Positions 35,717 to 49,775 of a stretch of 64,000 bases of DNA are shown piece after piece. The notes under the pieces were generated by a model that was not told the origin of the DNA, made no database searches, and worked only from the letters and a program-made list of their open reading frames with translations. Location: NCBI RefSeq assembly GCF_008327825.1, contig NZ_AP019827.1, positions 1,364,001 through 1,428,000 of the forward strand. The letters are read 5' to 3'. A program made the position numbers and the translations under genes. This stretch comes from Leptotrichia shahii. Its GTDB lineage: Bacteria > Fusobacteriota > Fusobacteriia > Fusobacteriales > Leptotrichiaceae. The stretch's first letter is position 1, and the number at the start of each line of letters is the position of its first letter.

Positions 35717-35872
35717 AATATTCTCCTCATTCATTCTTAAATTTTATTTTTAATAAAATTTATAGTTTTTTTTTACAGAAAAAATAAATCATATTTTTAT
35801 TATGTTAATTTAATGTTACAATATTTTTTTTACTTTGTCAACGAAATAATGCCAAAAATAAAAATTAAAATA

Positions 35873-35916
35873 ACATTTACGTATATGTTGACTTTTGGCA
35901 TAAAATATAGTATATT
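35873..35916 (+). promoter_or_regulatory. malQ promoter with overlapping palindromic site
   Basis: TTGACT, 17-nt spacer, TATATT. ACATTTACGTATATGT (35873-35888), palindromic except one central pair, abuts the -35 and shares its first base. The same site is at malB. Confidence 0.65.
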
Positions 35917-35971
35917 TAGTATTGAGAAAGAAAAATTTAATTTTATTAATAATTTTAAGGAGGAAATAGAA

Positions 35972-37462
35972 ATGTTTGAGAGAAGTTCTGGTATTTTGTT
36001 ACATCCTACTTCACTTCCTGGAAAATATGGAATTGGAAGTTTAGGAAAGGAAGCATATAAATTTGTTGATTTCCTAAAAAAATCAAATCAAAAATTATGG
36101 CAAATTTTCCCACTTGGACCGACTGGATATGGTGATTCGCCTTACCAATGTTTTTCATCATTTGCTGGAAACCCATATTTAATTGATTTTGACTTGTTAA
36201 TCGAGCAAAATTTATTAACTGAGGAAGATTTGAAAGATGTTAATTTTGGAGGAAATGAAGAATATATTGATTATGGTGCTATTTATAATCAAAAATATCC
36301 TTTGTTAAGAAAAGCATATGAAAACTTTAAAGCTAACGGAAATAAAGAATTAAAAGAAAAATTGGAAACTTTTAAAACTGAAAATAGCTCTTGGCTAGAT
36401 GATTACAGCCTTTATATTTCTTTAAAAAATCACTTTAACGGACTTCCTTGGAATGAATGGGAAGATGACATTAGAACTAGAAAAGAAGCTGCTATAAATA
36501 AATACAAAGCTGAATTAGTTAATGAAATTGAATATCATAATTTTATTCAATTCCTATTCTTTACTCAATGGAATAATGTAAAAAAATACGCTAATGACAA
36601 TGGAATAAAAATAATCGGAGATATACCAATCTTCGTTGCAGTAGACAGCTCAGACGCATGGGCAAATCCAGAAATTTTCCTATTCGATCCTGAACTAAAA
36701 CCTGTTAAAGTAGCTGGTGTTCCGCCTGATTATTTCAGTGCCACAGGACAACTTTGGGGAAATCCTTTGTACGACTGGGACAAATTAAAAGAGTTAAACT
36801 ACAAATGGTGGGTAGACAGAGTTAGAGCCAACCTTTCCACTTGTGACATCATAAGAATTGACCATTTCAGAGGATTTGATGAATATTGGGCTGTTCCTTA
36901 TGGAGATAAAACAGCTGAAAATGGTACTTGGTGTCCAGGGCCTAGAACGGACTTATTTAACGCCATTAAAAATGAACTTGGAGAATTACCTATAATTGCT
37001 GAAGATTTAGGAACAATGACGCAAGGTGTTATTGATTTGAGAGAAGCAACTGGATTCCCTGGAATGAAAATTCTAGGATTTGCATTTGATTCCAAAGAAG
37101 AAAATGACTACTTGCCTCATACTTATACCAAAAATTGTGTAGTTTATACAGGAACTCATGATAACGACACATTAATTGGATGGTTTACAAAAGCCAATGA
37201 AGACGATAAACAATTTGCAAGAAACTATTTAAATTCAAGATCGGATAATGAAATCCATTGGGATGCAATAAGAGGTGCATGGAGCTCTGTTGCAAACATG
37301 GCAATCGCTCCAATTCAAGATTTTTTAGGATTAGGAAGCGAAGCTAGAATCAATACTCCTGGACTTGCTAGCGGAAACTGGCAATGGAGATTAAAAGATG
37401 GTGTATTGACAGATGAATTGGCAGAAAGAATTGCTAAATTAACAAAAGTTTACTCAAGATAG
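35972..37462 (+). CDS. malQ: 4-alpha-glucanotransferase (amylomaltase) MalQ
   Basis: Transfers glucan segments between maltodextrins, releasing glucose. GH77 pattern: SSGILLHPTSLPGKYGIGSL at the start, GYGDSPYQCFSSFAGNPYL, DIPIFVAVDSSDAWANP, then IRIDHFRGFDEYWAVP with the nucleophile Asp, IIAEDLG with the acid Glu, and YTGTHDNDT. The start ATG follows AAGGAGG, giving 496 residues, the usual length; a much longer frame upstream contains the promoter and is not real. Its terminator follows directly. It may share regulation with malB through a common operator. Confidence 0.96.
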   Translation: MFERSSGILLHPTSLPGKYGIGSLGKEAYKFVDFLKKSNQKLWQIFPLGPTGYGDSPYQCFSSFAGNPYLIDFDLLIEQNLLTEEDLKDVNFGGNEEYIDYGAIYNQKYPLLRKAYENFKANGNKELKEKLETFKTENSSWLDDYSLYISLKNHFNGLPWNEWEDDIRTRKEAAINKYKAELVNEIEYHNFIQFLFFTQWNNVKKYANDNGIKIIGDIPIFVAVDSSDAWANPEIFLFDPELKPVKVAGVPPDYFSATGQLWGNPLYDWDKLKELNYKWWVDRVRANLSTCDIIRIDHFRGFDEYWAVPYGDKTAENGTWCPGPRTDLFNAIKNELGELPIIAEDLGTMTQGVIDLREATGFPGMKILGFAFDSKEENDYLPHTYTKNCVVYTGTHDNDTLIGWFTKANEDDKQFARNYLNSRSDNEIHWDAIRGAWSSVANMAIAPIQDFLGLGSEARINTPGLASGNWQWRLKDGVLTDELAERIAKLTKVYSR

Positions 37463-37608: not shown

Positions 37609-37617
37609 AAATATTAT

Positions 37618-38022
37618 TTTCAATCCTTATTTTAATGGATACTCTACTTTAACCTTTTAAAATCAAATCAAAGTAAACATAAGATAACTTGTTTCAATCC
37701 TTGTTTTAATGGATACTCTACTTTAACTCCAATTTCAGATCCCGTAGACCCATCTGTAAGAAAGTTTCAATCCTTGTTTTAATGGATACTCTACTTTAAC
37801 ATACGTAGAAATTTACTTCGAAAAAATAGAATATGGTTTCAATCCTTGTTTTAATGGATACTCTACTTTAACAACAACGTGCCAGTTTATATAGGAGAGA
37901 GAAATGAAGTTTCAATCCTTGTTTTAATGGATACTCTACTTTAACCTATAGATAAATTAAAAGGAAGAATAGAAATATGGACACCGTTTCAATCCTTGTT
38001 TTAATGGATACTCTACTTTAAC
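37618..38022 (-). CRISPR. CRISPR array, six repeats and five spacers
   Basis: Repeats of 37 nt at 37618, 37691, 37764, 37836, 37909 and 37986. Five are identical (on the plus strand beginning GTTTCAATCCTTG and ending CTCTACTTTAAC); the one at 37618 has two changes and is the trailer end. Spacers are 36, 36, 35, 36 and 40 nt, all different. On the minus strand the repeat ends in GGATTGAAAC, the 3' end typical of type I-B and III arrays (8-nt tag ATTGAAAC), so transcription runs leftward from a leader on the right. No cas gene is in the window. I see no spacer match elsewhere here. Confidence 0.96.
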
Positions 38023-38547: not shown

Positions 38548-39141
38548 TTATTTTCCTAATAACTTCTTAATTCCTTCAATCAGCAAAACATGCTCCTTCT
38601 CAAGCACCCTCTTCTGCAAGATTTCAGGTGTATCATCACTAAGCACAGGAACTTTCATCTGTAAAATTACTTCTCCCGTATCAACTCCTGTATCAACAAA
38701 ATGAATTGTGCAACCGCTTTCAGTTTCTTTTGCTTCGATAACTGCTCTGTGAACATTCATTCCATACATTCCTTTTCCACCAAATTTTGGAAGCAATGAT
38801 GGATGGATATTTATAATTTTTCTTGACCATTTTTTTATAAATTCTGGCGATAAAATTGACAGATATCCTGCTAATACGATATAATCTGTTTTTTTGTCAT
38901 CATTTTCAAGGATATCGCTAATTTCATCAGATAATTTTTCTTTTAATACTTTTCTGTCAAGCAAAACATTTTTTATACCATGTTTTTCTGCTCTCTCCAA
39001 TCCATAGCACTCTCTATCTGCAATTACATAAGAAATTTCACAATTTAAGTTTCCTTGCTCAATATTGTTAATAATTGATTGTAAGTTCGACCCTCCACCA
39101 GAAACTAGAACTGCTATTCTTTTTTTATTTTTATTAAACAT
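38548..39141 (-). CDS. purN: Phosphoribosylglycinamide formyltransferase PurN
   Basis: Transfers formyl from 10-formyl-THF to GAR. 197 residues from an ATG preceded by AGAGAGTG; a TTG twelve codons earlier lies within the palindromic repeat and is not likely. The nucleotide motif RIAVLVSGGGSNLQSIINN opens the protein; the catalytic Asn-His-Asp region is seen as INIHPSLLPKF and HFVDTGVDTGEVI with GCTIHF. Follows purM. Confidence 0.93.
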   Translation of the reverse strand: MFNKNKKRIAVLVSGGGSNLQSIINNIEQGNLNCEISYVIADRECYGLERAEKHGIKNVLLDRKVLKEKLSDEISDILENDDKKTDYIVLAGYLSILSPEFIKKWSRKIINIHPSLLPKFGGKGMYGMNVHRAVIEAKETESGCTIHFVDTGVDTGEVILQMKVPVLSDDTPEILQKRVLEKEHVLLIEGIKKLLGK

Positions 39142-39171
39142 TTTTTCACTCTCTTTAAAATTTTTAAATTT

Positions 39172-39196
39172 TGACAAGGAGTCAAGACCCCTTGTT
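39172..39196. repeat. Intercistronic palindrome between purM and purN
   Basis: TGACAAGGAGTCAAGACCCCTTG, an imperfect inverted repeat matching the centre of the MITE-like element. Related palindromes lie between purF and purC and between purC and purE. Confidence 0.5.
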
Positions 39197-39221
39197 TTAG
39201 AAATGTATTTTATTTATAATT

Positions 39222-40220
39222 TTAGTATAAATTAATTTTTTTGTCGCCTTTAACGATAGTTCCTAATTCATAGGCTTCTTCTCCATTTTCAGCTAAGATA
39301 TCAATAACTGTTTGAGCATCATTTTTATTTACAATAACAACAAATCCAACTCCCATATTGAATGTTCCCCACATTTCTTCTTCTGGAACTTTTGAGAATG
39401 TTTCGTGCTTGAATATTGAATGAACTTTTACTTTCGCTTTTTCGATATTTGCACAAAGTCCGTCAGGTATTGTTCTTGGAACATTTTCAATTAGCCCTCC
39501 ACCAGTGATATGAGCCATTCCGTTAATTTTTACTTCCTTCATTACAGCCTGAACTGGTTTTACATAAATCTTTGTAGGAGTCAATAAATGCTCTCCAATT
39601 GGTTTCCCATTGTAAACTTCAGTAAAGTCAGTAAATAATTTTCTAATTAGTGAAAAACCGTTACTATGAGCTCCGCTTGATGGAATTGCAATTAAAACAT
39701 CGTTTTCTTTAACATCTGAACCATTGACAATTTGATCCTCTTCTACTGCACCTACTGCAAATCCTGCTATATCGTATTCTCCTGGTGTGTAAAATCCCGG
39801 CATTTCCGCTGTTTCTCCACCAATTAAGGAAGCTTCTGACTGCAAGCATCCTTCCACAACTCCACTTACAATTTCAGCCGATACATTTGAATCTAATTTT
39901 CCACAAGCTAAGTAATCTAGGAAAAATAGCGGTTTTGCTCCGTGACACAAAATATCGTTTATACACATTGCCACACAGTCTATTCCAACTGTGTTGTAAA
40001 TTCCTGTTTCAAATGCAACTTTTAATTTTGTCCCAACTCCGTCAGTTCCAGAAACCAGCACAGGCTTTTTATAATCTCCTAATTTGTACAATGCCCCAAA
40101 ACTTCCTAAATCATTCATAACATTGGCATTATACGTACTTTTTGCACCATTTTTTATTTTTTCTACACTTTTGTATCCTTCTTCTTTATCTACTCCCGAA
40201 TCTTTATAAGAAATTGACAT
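39222..40220 (-). CDS. purM: Phosphoribosylformylglycinamidine cyclo-ligase (AIRS) PurM
   Basis: Closes the imidazole ring of FGAM using ATP. 332 residues. Conserved pieces: SISYKDSGVDKEEGYKSV at the start, the ATP-binding VSGTDGVGTKLKVA, GIDCVAMCINDILCHGAKPL, GGETAEMPGFY, GAHSNGFSLIR and HITGGGLIENVPR. AGGAGGA precedes the ATG. Middle of the purine cluster, following the DUF3298-like gene by about 65 nt. Confidence 0.98.
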   Translation of the reverse strand: MSISYKDSGVDKEEGYKSVEKIKNGAKSTYNANVMNDLGSFGALYKLGDYKKPVLVSGTDGVGTKLKVAFETGIYNTVGIDCVAMCINDILCHGAKPLFFLDYLACGKLDSNVSAEIVSGVVEGCLQSEASLIGGETAEMPGFYTPGEYDIAGFAVGAVEEDQIVNGSDVKENDVLIAIPSSGAHSNGFSLIRKLFTDFTEVYNGKPIGEHLLTPTKIYVKPVQAVMKEVKINGMAHITGGGLIENVPRTIPDGLCANIEKAKVKVHSIFKHETFSKVPEEEMWGTFNMGVGFVVIVNKNDAQTVIDILAENGEEAYELGTIVKGDKKINLY

Positions 40221-40284
40221 TTTCTCCTCCTAATTTTATTGTATTGATATTTCATATTTATTATTTTATCATCAATGTTTTTAA

Positions 40285-41103
40285 TTAATCCCACCAACGA
40301 TCAAAAATTGATACTTCATTTTCTCTATACTCTGGATATAACAATGGATTTATTTTTTTCCAAGGTATTGTTAATATGCTTCCTGCATCACTAAATGTAT
40401 CTGTTAGTTCAAGTGTAGCAAATTCAAATGTTAAGCCTTCATCTGAAAAATAAAATCTTTCTGGAACATTTCCTGTATATCTTGATTTTTCTTCATATTC
40501 AAGCCCTTGATCATAATTTTCTTTCAATAACCTTGAAATTCTGCCATCATTTTCCTTATAATTTATTATTATATCTTTTAATTTTAATTTTTTCTTTTTA
40601 TTAATATCAATATTTATATAATTAACATCGCCATAGTCTCTCACAGCCAATGTAGCACCTCGACTTATACTTTTAAATGAAACAATATTTCCTTTTTGTC
40701 CTAAATATACTATAGCTGCACCGAATGTATAATTATAAGCACTTTCATTTTCATAGTTTTCATTATTTAACTTATTGAATTTATTTGAAATCATTTCTTT
40801 TAATTTTTCTTTATCAGAAACATTTTTTTCTCCATCAAATATAGCATTACTTAATTCTTTAACTAAAATGTCATTCACCCATTTTATCTTTGTTACAGGT
40901 AACATAATTCTATATTCATTATATGCTATACCTTCTGATGTCTTAACATTTTTTACTTTATCAAAAATAACTTCATAATTCACATCTAAATGCGGTACAT
41001 CACTTTCTATATTTTTATTATATGTATCAGTATACCCAATACTTGCTATTACTATTGACATTATTAAAATAAACTTTTTCATATTCTCATTAATTTCTTT
41101 CAT
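40285..41103 (-). CDS. Secreted DUF3298-like protein embedded in the pur cluster
   Basis: 272 residues with a signal peptide (KKFILIMSIVIASIGYTDT); the true start may be the second ATG seven codons in. The C-terminal part (VPERFYFSDEGLTFEFATLE to ILTIPWKKINPLLYPEY) resembles the DUF3298 domain, also seen in RsiV, a lysozyme-sensing anti-sigma factor. The middle (NIDINKKKKLKLKDII) fits the same family. No sigma factor is nearby and there is no cytosolic segment, so it would be a free periplasmic protein. It starts only 10 nt after the purF stop, so it must share that transcript. Confidence 0.65.
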   Translation of the reverse strand: MKEINENMKKFILIMSIVIASIGYTDTYNKNIESDVPHLDVNYEVIFDKVKNVKTSEGIAYNEYRIMLPVTKIKWVNDILVKELSNAIFDGEKNVSDKEKLKEMISNKFNKLNNENYENESAYNYTFGAAIVYLGQKGNIVSFKSISRGATLAVRDYGDVNYINIDINKKKKLKLKDIIINYKENDGRISRLLKENYDQGLEYEEKSRYTGNVPERFYFSDEGLTFEFATLELTDTFSDAGSILTIPWKKINPLLYPEYRENEVSIFDRWWD

Positions 41104-41112
41104 ATAAATTTT

Positions 41113-42564
41113 CTATTTTTTTAATTCTTTCAAAGCCTCTTTTTGAATTGGTGTCAACGAAGCATAAAATTCTTCCTCATAATCTCCCAATCCAGCAGGA
41201 TAATCTCCATTAAAGCACTCCATGCAAAGCCCAGTATAAGGTGCATCAAAATCAAGCCCTATCGAATCAATCAGTCCATCTATGCTAAGAAATGCAAGTG
41301 AATCTGCCCCTATATACTCTCTTACTTCCTCAACAGTTTTATTCGCTGAAATCAATTCAGAGGATTTTGAAACATCTATTCCGTAAAAGATAGGAAATTT
41401 AAATTCTGGAGAGGCAATACGGACATGCACTTCTTTTACTCCTGCTTCTTTTAACAGTTGAACTATACGGCTTGAAGTTGTTCCACGGACTATTGAGTCA
41501 TCTATCATAACCACAACTTTATCTTTTACAACACTTTTTACAGCAGATAACTTCATTCTGACACCTTGCTCACGCAATTCCTGAGTTGGCTGAATAAAAG
41601 TACGGGCTACATATTGATTTTTTATTAGTCCCATTTCATAAGGCTTTCCAATTTCCTCTGCATATCCGCTTGCCGCTGATAATGATGAGTTGGGAACTCC
41701 GATTATCATATCTGCATGTTCAACTGGGGCTTCCTGTGCCAATCTTCTACCACATCTTTTACGGGCAGAATGAACATTTACTCCTGAAATATCTGAATCA
41801 GGTCTTGAAAAATACACATATTCCATTGCCGCAATGGCAGTTGAAGTATTTTCAGTATATTTTTCAATTCTATATCCTTCTTTGTTAATGATAATTATTT
41901 CTCCAGATCTAATATTTCTAATAAATTCTGCTCCCACGATTTCCAATGCACATGTTTCACTTGCCAAAATATACGCTCCGTTTTTGGTTTGCCCTAAAAT
42001 TAATGGACGAAATTCAAAGGGATCAACTGCACCATATAATTCCGTTTGAGTTTGAACTAAGAAAGAAAATCCGCCTTTTATTTGTCTTAACGCATCTTTC
42101 AATTGGCTTAAAAAGTTCTTTTCTTTACTTCTTCTAATCAAATGAACCAACACTTCTGTGTCTGATGTAGAATGAAAAATCGCACCATGTTCTTCCAGCT
42201 CTTTTTTTAATGTTTTTGCATTAATCAAGTTTCCATTGTGTGCCAAAGCAATACTTCCATCAAAAAATTGAAATAAAAATGGCTGAATATTACGTCCGCT
42301 ACCGCTTCCAGAAGTTGCATATCTAACGTGTCCAATAGCACAACTTCCTTTCAAACGGTTAAAAATTCTGTCATCATTAAATACTTCCGACACTAATCCA
42401 GGCCCACGATGTCCATTTACACGTTTACCATCACTTACCACAATTCCTGCCGCTTCTTGCCCTCTGTGCTGAAGACTGTGAAGTCCGTAATAAGTCAGTC
42501 TTGCTGCATCAGGATGTCCATAAACTCCAAATACTCCACATTCCTCATTCAAACTCTTAATCAT
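41113..42564 (-). CDS. purF: Amidophosphoribosyltransferase PurF
   Basis: Committed step of purine synthesis: PRPP plus glutamine to phosphoribosylamine. 483 residues. The N-terminal Ntn-glutaminase begins at Cys9 after a short MIKSLNEE propeptide ([10 protein letters not shown]), with [23 protein letters not shown] and QPFLFQ following. The PRPP-binding loop [16 protein letters not shown] is at about 350. The tail with [13 protein letters not shown] matches B. subtilis-type enzymes that carry an Fe-S cluster; Cys residues in that tail and one upstream are present. GGAGGA precedes the ATG. Confidence 0.98.
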
Positions 42565-42637
42565 TTGTAGTTTTCCTCCATTTTTATTATAAATATTTTA
42601 GTTTATAATTTATCAGTATTTTCTAATTTTATTTAAA

Positions 42638-42662
42638 TGACAAGGGGTCTTAACCTCTTGCT
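42638..42662. repeat. Intercistronic palindrome between purF and purC
   Basis: TGACAAGGGGTCTTAACCTCTTG, very close to the centre of copy B of the MITE-like element. Confidence 0.5.
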
Positions 42663-42681
42663 AATATTTAATTTTAGAAAT

Positions 42682-43398
42682 TTATTTTAAAACTTCTTCC
42701 AGACGACGAAGCACTTCACGATATGCTCCCATTACATCTCCCAAATCTTGTCTAAATCTATCTTTATCCAATTTTTTAAGCGTATCTTTATCCCAAAGTC
42801 TCATTGAATCTGGACTAATTTCATCTGCAAGCAATATATTTCCGTCTTTATCTCTTCCAAATTCAATTTTATAATCTACTAAAATCAAGTTCATTTTGTC
42901 AAATAATGTAGACAACAAATCATTAATTAAGAAAGTTTGTTTTTTTATCTCAGCCAATTCTTCTTCAGTAACCAATTCCAATGCTAAAGCGTGATCATCA
43001 TTCAACAACGGATCTCCTAAATCATCATTTTTGTAAGACAATTCAAAAGTAGGTCTTTTAAAAATTTTCCCTTCTTCAGCCGCATATCTTTTTACAAAAC
43101 TTCCAGTCGCCCTATTTCTAATAATCACTTCCAAAGGAACAATTTCCACCTTTTTACAAAGCTGTTCCCTTTCATTCAAAGTTTTAATCCAGTGAGTTTT
43201 TACACCATGTTTAATTAAATATCCATAAAGTAATGTAGAAATTTTATTATTCAAAATCCCCTTATCTTCCAATTGATCTTTTTTAATCCCATTAAATGCA
43301 GTCGCATCATCTTTAAAGTACATAATTATTTCATCTGCTTTATCTGTTTCAAAAATTGATTTTGCTTTTCCTTCGTAAATTTGTTCTCTTTTTTCCAT
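42682..43398 (-). CDS. purC: Phosphoribosylaminoimidazole-succinocarboxamide synthase PurC
   Basis: Couples CAIR and aspartate with ATP. 238 residues from the ATG 6 nt after GGAGG; the upstream ATG overlaps that site. SAICAR synthetase motifs: REQIYEGKAKSIFET, ATAFNGIKKDQLEDKG, IPLEVIIRNRATGSFVKR in the form IVPLEVIIRNRATGSF, DYKIEFGRD and LADEISPDSMRLWD. The order purE-purC-purF fits the common bacterial arrangement. Confidence 0.98.
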   Translation of the reverse strand: MEKREQIYEGKAKSIFETDKADEIIMYFKDDATAFNGIKKDQLEDKGILNNKISTLLYGYLIKHGVKTHWIKTLNEREQLCKKVEIVPLEVIIRNRATGSFVKRYAAEEGKIFKRPTFELSYKNDDLGDPLLNDDHALALELVTEEELAEIKKQTFLINDLLSTLFDKMNLILVDYKIEFGRDKDGNILLADEISPDSMRLWDKDTLKKLDKDRFRQDLGDVMGAYREVLRRLEEVLK

Positions 43399-43452
43399 TT
43401 TTATTTCCTCCATTTTTTACATTTTTATTTTAAATTTTTTATACTTTCACAC

Positions 43453-43471
43453 AAGGAATCAAAATTCCCTT
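43453..43471. repeat. Intercistronic palindrome between purE and purC
   Basis: AAGGAATCAAAATTCCCTT, inverted arms AAGGAAT/ATTCCCTT with one bulge; same family style as the other two in the cluster. Confidence 0.4.
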
Positions 43472-43518
43472 ATCGCTTTTATTTTTTAAATTAAGTTATG
43501 TTAGACAAATATTAAAGA

Positions 43519-43998
43519 TTATAGCTCAACTTTTTTCTCATTATCAGCAATAAATTTAGCTTTCATTTCTTTTCTAAATGTAACCAATTTTTCTCTAATT
43601 TCAGGATATTTAATCGCAAGAATTTGCACAGCTAACATTCCTGAATTGTATGAATTATTAATTCCAACAGTTGCCACTGGAATAGATTTTGGCATTTGAA
43701 CAATTGAATAAAGTGCATCCAATCCTTCAATTGCACCATTTAAAGGTACTCCAACTACAGGCAATATTGTTTTTGAAGCAATAACTCCTGGTAAATGTGC
43801 CGCAAGTCCAGCTCCAGCGATAATCACTTCTGCACCTCTTTTTTCAACATCAGCTAAAACTTCCTCCAATTTTTCAGGAACTCTGTGAGCTGACAATACA
43901 TAAGCTTCAAACTCAATCCCAAATTCTCTCAAGCAATTTGCTGCACCTCTCATTTTATCAGTATCTGACTGACTTCCAAAAAATATTGCTACTTTCAT
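43519..43998 (-). CDS. purE: N5-carboxyaminoimidazole ribonucleotide mutase PurE
   Basis: Class I PurE, moves the carboxylate to C4 of the ring. 159 residues, standard size. FGSQSDTDKMRGAANCL, YVLSAHRVPEKL (the catalytic His), IAGAGLAAHLPGVIASKT and PLNGAIEGLDALYSIVQMP are all present. No purK is in the window, although class I enzymes need N5-CAIR from PurK; purK may lie elsewhere. AAGGAGGA precedes the ATG. First pur gene after the purL-lipoprotein pair. Confidence 0.98.
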   Translation of the reverse strand: MKVAIFFGSQSDTDKMRGAANCLREFGIEFEAYVLSAHRVPEKLEEVLADVEKRGAEVIIAGAGLAAHLPGVIASKTILPVVGVPLNGAIEGLDALYSIVQMPKSIPVATVGINNSYNSGMLAVQILAIKYPEIREKLVTFRKEMKAKFIADNEKKVEL

Positions 43999-44021: not shown

Positions 44022-45095
44022 TTATTTTACTATTAGATTTTGCCGTATATTTATATACATCTCAAGCGTATTTACAACATTGTCAACTGCAAGCGCATTC
44101 AAATTATCATAATTTTTATTATCTATTTTATCCAATATTTTTTTAGATAATTCCACACCCTTATCCCCTTGCTCAAGTATTTTTATATACACATCTTTTT
44201 TTAAATACATTGAATATATTTTAGAATCTGTTGTTAATTCTTTTGTTTTTTTTAATTGTTTTTCTACTTCCATTAAAATTAACTCTAATTCTGCCCTGTA
44301 TTTCTTCTGATTCTTTATATCAACATTAAATTTTTCATTTTTTCCAATAGAAATCTCATTCCAGTCATATAATCTGTCATCAAAAATTCCCATTAATAGA
44401 TTTAATTTTCTTAAATTCATGTATAAATTATCATCAGATATGGAATTTGATATTATTGTTTTTTCTTCCTCGTAATCTTCTTGTTTCACTTTCTTATTAA
44501 GTGTTCTAAATATTTGTTTTCTTTTATATAAAATTTTTAAATATTCATCATTTAAAATTTTGCCTTTTGAATAATCATCTTTTTTATATTCTCCAGTTTC
44601 ATAATAACTTCTAATTTCTTTTATTTTTGCTCTCTCTTCTCGTAGAATATTTATCCAATCCTGTACATACTTATCGAGATCTGCTAATTTAGGCTCTTTT
44701 TTTTGTACTTTTTCAAGATTGTCAATCTCTTTATAAAACTTTTCTAATCCAACATCCATTACTTTTTCATATACAAGAAAATCCTCAATATTCTTAGGTG
44801 TTCCTTTTACAAAATTATCATTTCCATCTAGGAAGCTTGACCTGTAAACATTATAATAGGCATCTTTATCTGGTGAATAAGCATAACCTGATAAAATCAG
44901 GCTATACTCACCTTTTTTATTTCTTATATCTAGTTCCTTTGAGTATTCTTTATCATAATAATTTATCTTCTTATTTTCAGTTTTTTCTGGAAAATGTAAT
45001 ATTTGCTCTATTGGTATTCCATCTTCCTGATTTGACTGACAGCTTATAATAAACAGAAAAGTTATAATCACTAAGAATAATCGTTTTTTATTCAT
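44022..45095 (-). CDS. Lipoprotein, DUF3829/YiiG-like, inside the pur cluster
   Basis: 357 residues with a lipobox (LFIISC, Cys19). The mature protein is almost all helical and charged: YSPDKDAYYNVYRSSFL early, long helices through the centre, ending in a helix ALAVDNVVNTLEMYINIRQ. This layout resembles DUF3829 (YiiG) lipoproteins, which I hold with moderate confidence. It sits 23 nt upstream of purE and 38 nt downstream of purL, so it is cotranscribed with purine enzymes despite having no evident metabolic link. Confidence 0.6.
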   Translation of the reverse strand: MNKKRLFLVIITFLFIISCQSNQEDGIPIEQILHFPEKTENKKINYYDKEYSKELDIRNKKGEYSLILSGYAYSPDKDAYYNVYRSSFLDGNDNFVKGTPKNIEDFLVYEKVMDVGLEKFYKEIDNLEKVQKKEPKLADLDKYVQDWINILREERAKIKEIRSYYETGEYKKDDYSKGKILNDEYLKILYKRKQIFRTLNKKVKQEDYEEEKTIISNSISDDNLYMNLRKLNLLMGIFDDRLYDWNEISIGKNEKFNVDIKNQKKYRAELELILMEVEKQLKKTKELTTDSKIYSMYLKKDVYIKILEQGDKGVELSKKILDKIDNKNYDNLNALAVDNVVNTLEMYINIRQNLIVK

Positions 45096-45133: not shown

Positions 45134-48100
45134 TTATTTGAAAAATTTAATTCCATTTCTAAAGATATTTTGTTCTTTATCTCCATAAATATTTTTATAA
45201 ACATTCTTTCCTTTTCTTTCAGAATGTCCCATTTTACCAAAGATTCTACCGTTATAAGCTAACATTCCTTCAATCGCATAATATGAACCATTTGGATTAA
45301 ATTGTGAATCCATTGTCGAATTTCCATCCAAATCAACATATTTTGTAGCAATTTGATTGTTTTTGAATAATTTTTTGTATTCATCTTCTGTAATAATTAT
45401 TCTTCCTTCACCGTGAGAAATTGCTACTGAATGAATATCCCCTTCTTTCATGCTAGAAAGCCAAGGCGAATTATTTGTAATAATTTTTGTTTGCACAATT
45501 TTTGACATATGCTTGTCAATTGAATTAAATGTCAATGTTGGTGAAGTTTCATTCAATTCACGAATTTCTCCATAAGGAAGTAATCCTGATTTTATCAACG
45601 CTTGGAATCCGTTACAAATTCCTAAAATTAATCCATCTCTCTTCAACAGATTTTCCACTGCTTCTTTAACCTTTTTATTCTTCAGCACAGCAACCATAAA
45701 CTTAGCTGATCCATCTGGTTCATCTCCCGCACTAAATCCACCAGGTAACATTAAAATTTGCGAATTATTAATTTCTTTGACAAAATTATCAATTGAGCTT
45801 AAAATATTTCTATGTGACAAATTATTAAATACACCAATTTTTGCAAGTCCGCCTTCTCTATTAAAAGCTCTTTCCAAATCATATTCTGAGTTCGTTCCAG
45901 GGAATACTGGAATAAATACTCTTGGTTTTGCATAAGTGTTAGAAATATTACTAATTACATTTTGAGTTTCGATTTTTTCAAGTTTTTCATATTTTATACC
46001 TTTACAATGTGCAGTTTTATGTTCTTCGTCGACTTTTTTCTTAACTGGGAATATTTTTTCAAGTTTACTTTCCCAATTTCCAATTAATTCATCCAAGTCA
46101 AAAGTTGTATTATCTATAGTAATTTTCGCATTATCTATAACTTTTCCAAGTAAAACAGCATTTTTATTTTCAATATTTTCAGCAGTTTCTACAATAAATG
46201 CTCCATAATTTACCTTAAACCAGTCATTTTCATCAATTTGCGCTGTAACATCTACACCAAGTTTATTTCCAAATGCCATTTTTGCAATGCTTTCAGCAAT
46301 TCCACCATTTTTTACAGCCACAGCAGAAATAATTTTTTTATTTCTTATATTTTCAGTTATAAAATCAAAGTTTGCTTTTAGCTCGTCAAGTTCTGGCAAA
46401 TCATTTTCATCATTTGGCGTTGTAATCAAGTACACATTGTTTCCAGCCTTCTTAAATTCGCTAGAAATTACATTTTCCGCATCCGTAACACTCACAGCAA
46501 ATGATACCAATGTTGGCGGCACAGAAATTTCGTTAAATGTTCCGCTCATTGAGTCCTTCCCACCAATTGACGGCAATCCAAAGGCTTTTTGTATATGCAA
46601 TGTCCCTAATAATGCTGACAGCGGTTTACCCCATTTTTTAGAATCCTGTCCCAATCTTTCAAAATATTCCTGAAATGTAAATCTGATATTTTTGTAATTT
46701 CCTCCACCAGCAACAACTTTTGCCATTGATTCAATCACAGCATAAGCACCGCCGTGGAATGTGCTTTGTTTTGCAACATAAGGATTATATCCGTATCCAA
46801 CCATTGAAGCAACATCAGTTTCTGCATTGATTACCGACACTTTTTGCACCGAAACTTCCGCAGGAGTCAACTGATATTTTCCACCAAATGGCATTAATAC
46901 CGTCGTTGCTCCAATTGTTGAATCAAAAGTTTCAACTAATCCCCTTTGCGAAGCTACATTCAAGTCTTTTAAGTTATTTATAAATTTACTTCTAAAGTCA
47001 TTTCCTTCAATTTCTCTGTTCAAATTCAATTTTGGTGTATTTTCAATTGTAATATTGATGTTTGAAGCAGCTCCGTTTGTATTTAGGAAATCTCTGGAAA
47101 TATCAACAATCGCTTTTCCGTTGTATTTCATAACAAGTCTGTTTGAATCATTAATTTCAGCTACTTGATACGCTTCCAGATTTTCCTCGTTTGCAAATTC
47201 TATAAATTTATCCAAGTTTTGTTTTTCGATAACAACAGCCATTCTCTCCTGCGACTCTGAAATAGCAAGTTCTGTACCATTTAGCCCAATATATTTCACT
47301 CTTACCTTATTCAAGTCAATTTCAAGCCCGTCAGCTAATTCTCCAATTGCGACCGAAACTCCTCCAGCTCCAAAGTCGTTACATTTTTTAATTAATTTTG
47401 TAACATTTCTATTTCTGAAAAGTCTTTGAATTTTTCTTTCTACAATTGCATTTCCTTTTTGAACTTCTGCACTTGATTTTTCCGAAGATTCTGTTGTATG
47501 TTCCTTAGACGACCCTGTTGCTCCACCAATTCCATCTCTTCCAGTTCTTCCACCAAGTAAAATTACAATATCTCCATTTTCAGGCTTTTCCCGAATAATA
47601 TTTTCAGCAGGTGCCGCTCCTACGACAAGCCCCAGTTCCATTCTTTTAGCCTTGTAGCCTTCATCATAAATTTCATTTACGTGAGTTGTTGCAAGCCCAA
47701 TCTGGTTTCCATAAGAAGAAAATCCATGTGCAGCCACTTGTGTAATAACCTTTTGCGGTAATTTTCCAGCCATTGTATCTGCAATTTTTTCAGTTGGATC
47801 AGCAGAACCGCTAATTCTCACAGCCTGATAAACATAAGTTCTTCCAGATAATGGATCACGGATTGCTCCACCAATACAAGTAGAAGCCCCTCCAAACGGC
47901 TCAATTTCTGTCGGATGGTTATGAGTTTCATTTTTAAACTGCAAAATCCATTTTTCAGTAGTTATATTTTTTTCCCCATCTTCATTGATTCTTTCAATTG
48001 GCACATCAATATAAATTGAACAAGCATTTATTTCATCTGAAACTTCCAAATCTGGCAAATTCCCATTTTTTCTCTGCTCTTTTCCAAAAATTGTAGCAAT

Positions 48101-48940
48101 ATCCATAAGAGTCATCGGCTTTTTAGAAATTCTGTCAGCATGAACGTACTCCCTGCTTTCCAAGTACTCATTAATAGCCTTTTCTATAATATTTTTGTAA
48201 GTTTCATTTTCAATTTTTATATCGTCAATGATTGTTTCAAAAGTTGTGTGTCGGCAGTGGTCACTCCAGTAAGTATCAAGAACACGAATTTCAGTTTCTG
48301 TAGGATTTCTTTTTTCCTCATTTTTGAAATATTCCTGAATAAATAACAAGTCATTTACTGTCATTGCCAGTTCCAATTTATTTTTTAAATTTTCAATTTC
48401 TTCTTTTGTTTTTTCAGTAAATCCATCGTACACAATAACATCATCTTTATTTTCAGTTTCAACATTTTCACTTAAAATGTTCAAATCCTTTTCTCTTGCC
48501 TCAACTTCATTTATATAATATTTTTTTATTCTCGCAAGTTCATCAGGAGAAATTTTTCCGTATAAAATTATCAATTTTCCACTCTTTACGTTAATATTAT
48601 TGTCTTTATCGATTAATAAATTTACACATTGAATTGCAGAATCTGCTCTCTGGTCATACTGACCTGGCAAAAATTCTACTGAGAAATATACATTTTCTGA
48701 ATCTTTTTCTTCAAACACTTCATCCAGCGATCTAAAAACATTGTCAACATTTATTTCTGAAAATACCGTTGTTTCCAATTTTTCCAAATCATTTTCACCC
48801 AAGTTAAACACATCATAAATATTCAGAACTCTCACATCTCTAAGCCCGCTTATGCCTATATTTTCCTTCAAATCACTGAATAAATTCTGTGTTTCTACTC
48901 TAAAATCTTTCTTTTTTTCCACAAAGATTCTATAATTCAT
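45134..48940 (-). CDS. purL: Phosphoribosylformylglycinamidine synthase PurL, long form
   Basis: Converts FGAR to FGAM with glutamine and ATP. 1268 residues: the long single-chain form with N-terminal PurS-like domain (about 1-150), linker, two AIRS-like halves and a C-terminal class I glutaminase, so no separate purS or purQ is needed. Visible: TYWSDHCRHTTFE, KNETHNHPTEIEPFGGASTC, GGRTGRDGIGGATGSS, GGKDSMSGTF, and glutaminase FPGTNSEYDLERAF, LPGGFSAGDEPDGSAKF, ILGICNGFQALIKSGLLP (nucleophile Cys) and SHGEGRI. GAAGGAGAG precedes the ATG. First enzyme gene of the cluster, behind a leader ORF and hairpin. Confidence 0.97.
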   Translation of the reverse strand: MNYRIFVEKKKDFRVETQNLFSDLKENIGISGLRDVRVLNIYDVFNLGENDLEKLETTVFSEINVDNVFRSLDEVFEEKDSENVYFSVEFLPGQYDQRADSAIQCVNLLIDKDNNINVKSGKLIILYGKISPDELARIKKYYINEVEAREKDLNILSENVETENKDDVIVYDGFTEKTKEEIENLKNKLELAMTVNDLLFIQEYFKNEEKRNPTETEIRVLDTYWSDHCRHTTFETIIDDIKIENETYKNIIEKAINEYLESREYVHADRISKKPMTLMDIATIFGKEQRKNGNLPDLEVSDEINACSIYIDVPIERINEDGEKNITTEKWILQFKNETHNHPTEIEPFGGASTCIGGAIRDPLSGRTYVYQAVRISGSADPTEKIADTMAGKLPQKVITQVAAHGFSSYGNQIGLATTHVNEIYDEGYKAKRMELGLVVGAAPAENIIREKPENGDIVILLGGRTGRDGIGGATGSSKEHTTESSEKSSAEVQKGNAIVERKIQRLFRNRNVTKLIKKCNDFGAGGVSVAIGELADGLEIDLNKVRVKYIGLNGTELAISESQERMAVVIEKQNLDKFIEFANEENLEAYQVAEINDSNRLVMKYNGKAIVDISRDFLNTNGAASNINITIENTPKLNLNREIEGNDFRSKFINNLKDLNVASQRGLVETFDSTIGATTVLMPFGGKYQLTPAEVSVQKVSVINAETDVASMVGYGYNPYVAKQSTFHGGAYAVIESMAKVVAGGGNYKNIRFTFQEYFERLGQDSKKWGKPLSALLGTLHIQKAFGLPSIGGKDSMSGTFNEISVPPTLVSFAVSVTDAENVISSEFKKAGNNVYLITTPNDENDLPELDELKANFDFITENIRNKKIISAVAVKNGGIAESIAKMAFGNKLGVDVTAQIDENDWFKVNYGAFIVETAENIENKNAVLLGKVIDNAKITIDNTTFDLDELIGNWESKLEKIFPVKKKVDEEHKTAHCKGIKYEKLEKIETQNVISNISNTYAKPRVFIPVFPGTNSEYDLERAFNREGGLAKIGVFNNLSHRNILSSIDNFVKEINNSQILMLPGGFSAGDEPDGSAKFMVAVLKNKKVKEAVENLLKRDGLILGICNGFQALIKSGLLPYGEIRELNETSPTLTFNSIDKHMSKIVQTKIITNNSPWLSSMKEGDIHSVAISHGEGRIIITEDEYKKLFKNNQIATKYVDLDGNSTMDSQFNPNGSYYAIEGMLAYNGRIFGKMGHSERKGKNVYKNIYGDKEQNIFRNGIKFFK

Positions 48941-48964: not shown

Positions 48965-49010
48965 TATTTTATAAAAAATAAAAATCCAAGCAAAAAAATT
49001 ACCTAGATTT
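48965..49010 (-). terminator. Terminator hairpin (candidate attenuator) in the purL leader
   Basis: Minus strand AAATCTAGGTAA pairs with TTGCTTGGATTT over all 12 positions (four G-U) around a T loop, then TTATTTTTTAT. The 5' arm contains the last codons and the stop codon of the leader ORF, so a ribosome finishing that ORF would melt the hairpin. It lies about 25 nt before the purL start codon. Confidence 0.6.
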
Positions 49011-49127
49011 TCCATATATTTGTATATTTAATTTTTTATATTTTTTATATAACAAAGCAGACAATTTTACAATTTGTCTATTAAAAAATATCCTGATCGC
49101 TCTTCTGACAAAAAAATTTTTTTTCAT
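48999..49127 (-). CDS. Leader peptide ORF upstream of purL, 42 residues
   Basis: Starts MKKNFFVRRAIRIFFNRQ and ends NIQIYGKSR, strongly basic (about a third Lys/Arg) with aromatic residues, no acidic residue. GGAGGAAAG directly precedes the ATG. The promoter is about 70 nt upstream and the only downstream gene is purL. The stop codon lies in the arm of a terminator-like hairpin. The arrangement of promoter, small ORF, hairpin and biosynthetic gene is that of attenuation, although there is no run of one regulatory codon. It could alternatively be an independent small basic protein with its own terminator. Confidence 0.5.
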   Translation of the reverse strand: MKKNFFVRRAIRIFFNRQIVKLSALLYKKYKKLNIQIYGKSR

Positions 49128-49193
49128 CTTTCCTCCAATAAAATATTTCCCTAAAAAAATCTCACATTACTGTAAAATCTTCTACCTATTAAA

Positions 49194-49222
49194 AGTATAA
49201 CAAAATTTTACTATTTTTTCAA
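49194..49222 (-). promoter_or_regulatory. Promoter of the purL cluster
   Basis: Minus-strand TTGAAA, 17-nt spacer, TATACT. The predicted leader to purL is about 250 nt. I find no purine-riboswitch core or PRPP-PurR box in it. Confidence 0.65.
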
Positions 49223-49454: not shown

Positions 49455-49775
49455 ATGAAAATCATTATTAGTGGAAAACAACTTAAAGTCACAGATGCAA
49501 TTAAAACTTACGCTGAAGAAAAAATAAGCCGAATTTCCAAGTATTCAGATGCTATCACAGAAGTCGATGTTGTTCTGACTGTTGAAGATACAAAATCTGA
49601 AGGTCCAGTTCACAAAGCTGACGGATTAGTTTTTGCAAGTGGTACAAAAATAAAAATAGAAGCTGAAAATAAAGACTTATACGCAGCAATTGATGACTTA
49701 TCAGACAGACTAGAAAGACAAGTTAGAAAGTATAAAGAAAAACAAAAAGACCACAATAAAAAAGGTACTCGTTAA
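49455..49775 (+). CDS. hpf: Ribosome hibernation-promoting factor (short HPF/RaiA)
   Basis: 106 residues: the S30AE/RaiA domain alone, beginning MKIIISGKQLKVTDAIKTYA with KISRISKYSDAITEVDVVLT and the beta-alpha-beta order of the family, then a basic tail DRLERQVRKYKEKQKDHNKK. No C-terminal dimerisation domain, so it is a short HPF rather than the long form. Binds the 30S decoding region in stationary phase. AAAGGATGTG is before the ATG; good promoter and a terminator flank it, so it is a single-gene unit. Confidence 0.93.
   Translation: MKIIISGKQLKVTDAIKTYAEEKISRISKYSDAITEVDVVLTVEDTKSEGPVHKADGLVFASGTKIKIEAENKDLYAAIDDLSDRLERQVRKYKEKQKDHNKKGTR

Follow-up and report, generated by a model that had tools for sequence, protein, structure and literature searches.

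Purine operons are controlled by repressors and riboswitches, and we know of no purine operon under control by translation of a leader ORF; a search of open-access text found no such case in the literature either. The DNA upstream of purL in Leptotrichia shahii raises the question of whether such control exists. In the window, by which we mean the whole 64,000-nucleotide stretch analyzed, the first gene of a purine cluster is preceded by a short ORF that ends inside a terminator hairpin, an arrangement from which an earlier note had inferred translation-coupled control. We compared the purL upstream regions of 33 genomes, covering the family and much of the order. The best explanation for the leader, and in our judgment a fairly probable one, is that the purine cluster is governed by a ribosome-coupled transcription attenuator with a layout like that of pyrBI in E. 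coli.

Organization of the purL leader

The features of the leader and the cluster are as follows, with positions counted within the window.

49194..49222 (-): promoter, TTGAAA-17-TATACT with an extended -10, from a promoter scan; the -10 region is kept in the genus alignment
49128..49136 (-): ribosome-binding site GGAGGAAAG of the leader ORF, immediately 5' of the ATG
48999..49127 (-): leader ORF, 42 codons plus stop (129 bp); its frame is kept in relatives, its peptide is not
49059..49079 (-): core hairpin AGACAA-loop-UUGUCU within the ORF (codons R17-S23), a candidate pause hairpin, from comparison within the genus and with relatives
49049..49058 (-): conserved unpaired rCUUUGUUAU 3' of the core hairpin, a candidate RNA-polymerase pause region, proposed from its conservation
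48981..49011 (-): terminator hairpin, overlapped in its 5' arm by the end of the leader ORF (final codons and stop)
48966..48984 (-): T-rich tract of the terminator, from the sequence
45134..48940 (-): purL, which heads the cluster and encodes a single-chain FGAM synthase (TIGR01857)
38548..43998 (-): the other purine genes of the cluster, namely
43519-43998 (-): purE
42682-43413 (-): purC
41113-42564 (-): purF
39222-40220 (-): purM
38548-39177 (-): purN

The promoter, in which TTGAAA lies at 49222 and TATACT ends at 49194, scored 10 of 12 matches in the scan, with TG preceding the -10. Translation of the ORF gives MKKNFFVRRAIRIFFNRQIVKLSALLYKKYKKLNIQIYGKSR*, and GGAGG or AGGAGG stands 5' of the ATG in all 12 leaders listed. 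The terminator stem begins 116 nt past the AUG; its arms, AAAATCTAGG and CTTGGATTTT, are separated by an 11-nt loop and followed by TATTTTTTAT, and the final codons of the ORF, AAA TCT AGG TAA, fall within the 5' arm and the edge of the loop. The fold of the leader beats 200 of 200 shuffles (z = -4.9). Promoter scan, sequence and folding confirmed the promoter, the 42-codon ORF preceded by a strong ribosome-binding site and the hairpin overlapping the ORF, all as the earlier note had described them; the hairpin had been given 12 pairs, but this count varies with the A-U and G-U pairs accepted, and 10 are contiguous. The stem is AU-rich. The generic terminator scan did not list the window's leader terminator; a long loop and a stem with just two G-C pairs are the probable reason.

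The cluster itself is interrupted by two minus-strand ORFs without purine function, at 44022-45095 (matched by no NCBIfam model) and 40285-41103; what lies between purL and purE differs among relatives.

Recurrence at purL and relation to the riboswitch

An ORF running to a terminator before purL was found in 25 leaders, representing about 12 lineages in two families. Besides Leptotrichia, the unit occurs in eight other genera, two of them in another family (leaders L028/L171/L172 and L180/L183) and the rest in the same family (L011, L015, L016, L017/L031, L030 and L037). When the terminator stems of 18 leaders were aligned, 96% of cells were paired and five pairs were altered on both sides; the covariation score was reached by 0 of 500 shuffles, and controls in which the arms were slid were 21-51% paired. 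Compensatory change in this stem, proposed earlier as a check, is thus present. Within Leptotrichia, the core GACAAATTNNNANATTGTCTRCTTTGTTAT, a 30-nt element inside the ORF, is found in exactly one copy per genome, near purL, in 13 of 13 genomes, and no second copy of the leader lies elsewhere in any of them. A scan of genome contigs for PurL gave matches almost exclusively from other phyla.

Six genomes carry insertions of several hundred bp downstream of the leader terminator and ahead of purL, and the unit is intact. These are two different insertions of ~400-800 bp (L004-L007, L009 and L010); genome G012 (L198) carries an IS-like insertion of >1 kb at the same place, again with the unit intact. 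The overlap of ORF and terminator therefore persists with the unit pushed ~0.5-1.7 kb from purL. That these genomes lack the leader was considered and rejected, as it sits farther upstream, behind the insertions. In the species that carry them, purL may have acquired extra promoters.

Is the ORF itself real? Dinucleotide shuffling of the segment from start codon to stem gave P = 0.0025-0.095 per leader (0.02 for the window) for a frame that begins with a Shine-Dalgarno sequence and ATG, stays open to the stem and stops nearby, values that cannot simply be multiplied because the leaders were selected for having such an ORF. Judged from the alignments, recurrence and frame-keeping indels are the stronger evidence. 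Indels 5' of the core differ between subgroups by 3 nt or multiples of 3, and between L001 and L004 the alignment has a +1 change past the core offset by a +2 change nearer the stem, with several codons altered and the K-S-R-stop ending restored. In L008, the stop falls 9 nt before the stem. We take the layout, on these comparisons, not to be chance, since it is the same at purL in about 12 lineages and the terminator arms covary. The two G-C pairs of the window's stem and its omission from the consensus scan would suit a weak terminator beside a fortuitous ORF in an AT-rich leader, with no regulation at all; we give this reading hardly any credence, as the ORF-terminator overlap is conserved, the stem covaries and the core is present in 13 of 13 genomes despite insertions near purL.

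The earlier note had found no purine riboswitch in the window's leader, which Rfam scans at both the gathering level and a relaxed threshold bore out; the relaxed scan returned a single meaningless match, and a hidden purine or other riboswitch was rejected. The gap between promoter and ribosome-binding site, only ~60 nt, leaves no room for the purine riboswitch aptamer. The RF00167 purine riboswitch was detected in 17 of 33 family genomes and lies upstream of the ORF (43-70 bits) in all eight other genera that have the ORF-terminator unit, but it was not detectable in any of the 13 Leptotrichia genomes. Where a riboswitch leader has just one terminator (L018, L161-L166, L169 and L189), no ATG-started ORF reaches it. 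Because riboswitch and ORF unit occur together in eight genera and two families, the comparison of leaders favors loss of the riboswitch in Leptotrichia over gain elsewhere. In L030, the P1 helix of the riboswitch ends immediately 5' of the leader ORF's ribosome-binding site, so that translation of the leader ORF might itself be under aptamer control.

Neither the series of riboswitch, ORF and terminator nor the ORF and terminator alone, as in Leptotrichia, had a precedent that we could find in the open-access literature. If the attenuator reading is correct, the relatives would carry two sensors of different kinds one behind the other in a single leader, and comparison across the family would suggest a lineage that shed its riboswitch and retained a ribosome-coupled gate.

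Nucleotide and peptide constraint in the leader ORF

In four pairs of closely related species, the leader ORF has accumulated 23 nonsynonymous and 6 synonymous changes, a pN/pS of 0.87 that resembles neutrality (P = 0.81), whereas the corresponding value for the beginning of purL, over these same pairs, is 0.094 (Fisher P = 1e-6 for leader versus purL). Synonymous change is about three times rarer in the leader (6/93 sites) than in purL (81/393). Across the genus, almost every difference in the core codons is nonsynonymous (R/G, V/I, K/I/T and A/T), and the Gln CAA, Leu UUG, Ser UCU and Leu UUG codons of the core are invariant; UCU, a 20% codon, is retained at the core in all other genera compared. 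This pattern of nonsynonymous changes around fixed Gln, Leu and Ser codons points to constraint on nucleotides rather than on the peptide. What the aligned leaders conserve is an open frame, its end at the terminator and an in-frame nucleotide core consisting of the UUGUCU arm and rCUUUGUU, not a peptide. One pair from another genus, L180 and L183, gave a pN/pS of 0.27 on 12 changes, and a peptide function may exist there. The leader peptides of this pair, MYFxPKIKMKKHKKRSYxIGHSV..., look conserved at the protein level, unlike those of Leptotrichia.

These rates bear on two readings in which the peptide or its codons would matter. In the first, an arrest peptide, Q-I-x-x-L-S-T/A-L-L, would stall the ribosome on a ligand, and the position of the stall would decide whether the terminator forms. 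Several genera share the Q, L, S and L of the core in a constant frame, and attenuators such as tlrB are governed by leader peptides with arrest motifs (PMC6851288). The distance from the AUG to the end of UGUCU is 60, 63, 66, 69 or 75 nt, always a multiple of 3; such constancy would follow from the need for an open frame and alone is no argument for a peptide. A ribosome stalled at the core, which precedes the stem by 27-78 nt in most leaders, would leave the terminator free, and the changes within the core mark nucleotide constraint. We therefore regard an arrest peptide as unlikely. The earlier note had asked for conservation of the ORF at the codon level and counted a lack of purifying selection in relatives against its proposal: the frame and its end are kept, the peptide evolves near neutrality (pN/pS about 0.9 in Leptotrichia), and the branch of that proposal that invoked an arrest peptide is weakened. 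In the second reading, attenuation of the trp type through hungry codons, the plan of a leader ORF ahead of a terminator would be the same as here. The leaders share no codon run for a single amino acid, however, their peptides change freely, and the fold of the alignment holds no conserved alternative antiterminator helix, making this type very improbable.

The core hairpin presents a different picture from the terminator. Its cells are 90% paired, compared with 31-45% when slid, and it shows no covariation beyond that of shuffles; that the hairpin is proven by covariation was accordingly rejected. Full-leader folds often disfavor it. When RNA folds were ended at the 3' arm of the core, a hairpin was present there in nearly every fold inspected; L002 pairs this arm elsewhere, and in the subgroup L004-L009 the same 3' arm pairs with a different 5' arm. 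By alignment and folding, the shared feature is a hairpin ending in UUGUC(U), followed by the conserved rCUUUGUU. The loop is variable in both sequence and length. An exact TTNTTT motif is absent from the window's core. As a general antiterminator, a helix between the AGACAA strand and the 5' arm of the terminator was tried and rejected; by eye it suits L016, L017 and L014, yet it does not work in L004-L010 or L031.

Slow synonymous sites, an unpaired rCUUUGUU conserved as much as the stem and occurrence once per genome, at purL only, would also fit a core that is an RNA element bound by a protein, a small RNA or a metabolite, in which the ligand sets the switch and the ORF merely supplies translation. 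We think this improbable: the hairpin loop varies in sequence and length, unlike that of an aptamer, no Rfam family matches, and a frame that always reaches the terminator would be left unexplained.

Coupling of ribosome and polymerase as the proposed mechanism

We return to ribosome-coupled attenuation, for which the leader offers several established elements: the ORF, its overlap with a covarying terminator, a frame kept without conservation of its peptide, the nucleotide core and the link to purL. On these we infer a pause, blocking of the terminator by the ribosome and the direction of the switch. RNA polymerase transcribing the leader ORF would probably pause just beyond the core, ~80 nt past the AUG, allowing a ribosome to initiate and catch up. 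A ribosome following closely would occupy the nascent 5' arm of the terminator at the end of the ORF, and transcription would read through into purL; if translation were absent, late or stalled upstream, or if the polymerase had moved ahead, the terminator would fold and transcription would stop. The leader peptide would be a by-product. The natural insertions, frame changes and stop positions in Leptotrichia leaders make the rule that ribosome position, not peptide, decides the outcome directly testable.

The pause and the blocking both have counterparts in known systems. In E. coli, placing a stop codon 5 bp upstream of a terminator lowers termination from ~90% to under 10%, and uncoupling translation restores it; a terminator within the first 100 bp of an ORF evades ribosomes unless ribosome and polymerase are brought into step by a pause, which is the case in pyrBI, with its terminator inside a leader gene of 135 bp (PMC4824070). 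The leader described here, with a 129-bp ORF, a stem at 116 nt and a candidate pause near +80, has the same layout in kind as this UTP-responsive system: the terminator is likewise inside the ORF, nucleotide-synthesis genes follow and the peptide sequence is apparently irrelevant. It differs in that the operon is for purines rather than pyrimidines, that the candidate pause is a conserved hairpin with the CUUUGUU core rather than a U-rich run, that the ORF usually ends in the stem and that relatives have a purine riboswitch ahead of it. Kinship with pyrBI is one of layout, and a response to NTPs would be a further, conjectural likeness.

In published cases, the pause follows its hairpin by 10-13 nt (PMC12288461), a geometry that the conserved flank of the core fits. 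NusG residues N81-T82 are said to recognize a pause motif in sequence-specific pausing (PMC12288461), and the NusG of this organism has N-T aligned with N81-T82 of the 177-residue NusG chain 8ehq_G. In B. subtilis tlrB, a pause synchronizes the polymerase with a ribosome that blocks the terminator (PMC6851288). That system combines a NusG pause, a leader peptide and a terminator, and the pro-pausing NusG residues are present here; tlrB requires an RYR arrest motif and a drug, whereas Leptotrichia has no arrest motif under peptide-level selection. The mgtM leader of Salmonella responds to ATP through coupling, with conserved nucleotides and an unconserved peptide (PMC3641672), the pattern seen here. 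The mgtCBR leader also carries tandem attenuators (mgtM for ATP, mgtP for proline), but its stem-loops are unlike intrinsic terminators and high ATP turns it on; in our leader an intrinsic terminator overlaps the ORF, and in the relatives of Leptotrichia the first element is a riboswitch. That riboswitch, of the guanine type (RF00167) and known with a terminator, precedes the same unit and gene in the eight other genera and was not found in the 13 Leptotrichia genomes.

As for the signal, the most likely, though held with low confidence, is that low purine NTPs slow the polymerase and promote coupling (ON) and that ample NTPs uncouple it from the ribosome (OFF). This is appealing because its direction is sensible, the genes being on when purines are low. 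Translation capacity is the other candidate. An A-rich stretch, which would confer sensitivity to ATP, stands out only in L011 and the window's subgroup; L014, L015, L016, L017, L031 and L198 show no unusual A-richness, and ATP sensing by an A tract is unsupported as a general rule beyond that subgroup and L011. Control coupled to translation, the central claim of the earlier note, is supported by the ORF-terminator overlap across genera, the covariation of the arms and the persistence of the unit despite insertions; its arrest-peptide variant is not strengthened by the same comparisons but weakened. The fullest version, which we put forward tentatively and would not expect to hold in every part, is a pyrBI-like gate sensing purine NTPs or translation capacity, second in line behind a guanine riboswitch in several related genera and left as the only leader control in Leptotrichia once the riboswitch had been lost.

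Two further observations concern the surroundings of the cluster. Six repeats of the CRISPR-DR7 type lie at 37617-38022 (-), between a malQ-like ORF (35813-37462) and purN, with no cas-like ORF of at least 110 aa listed beside them. Upstream of the purL leader, a gene for an HPF/YfiA ribosome hibernation factor (TIGR00741) occupies 49455-49775 (+) and is divergent from it.
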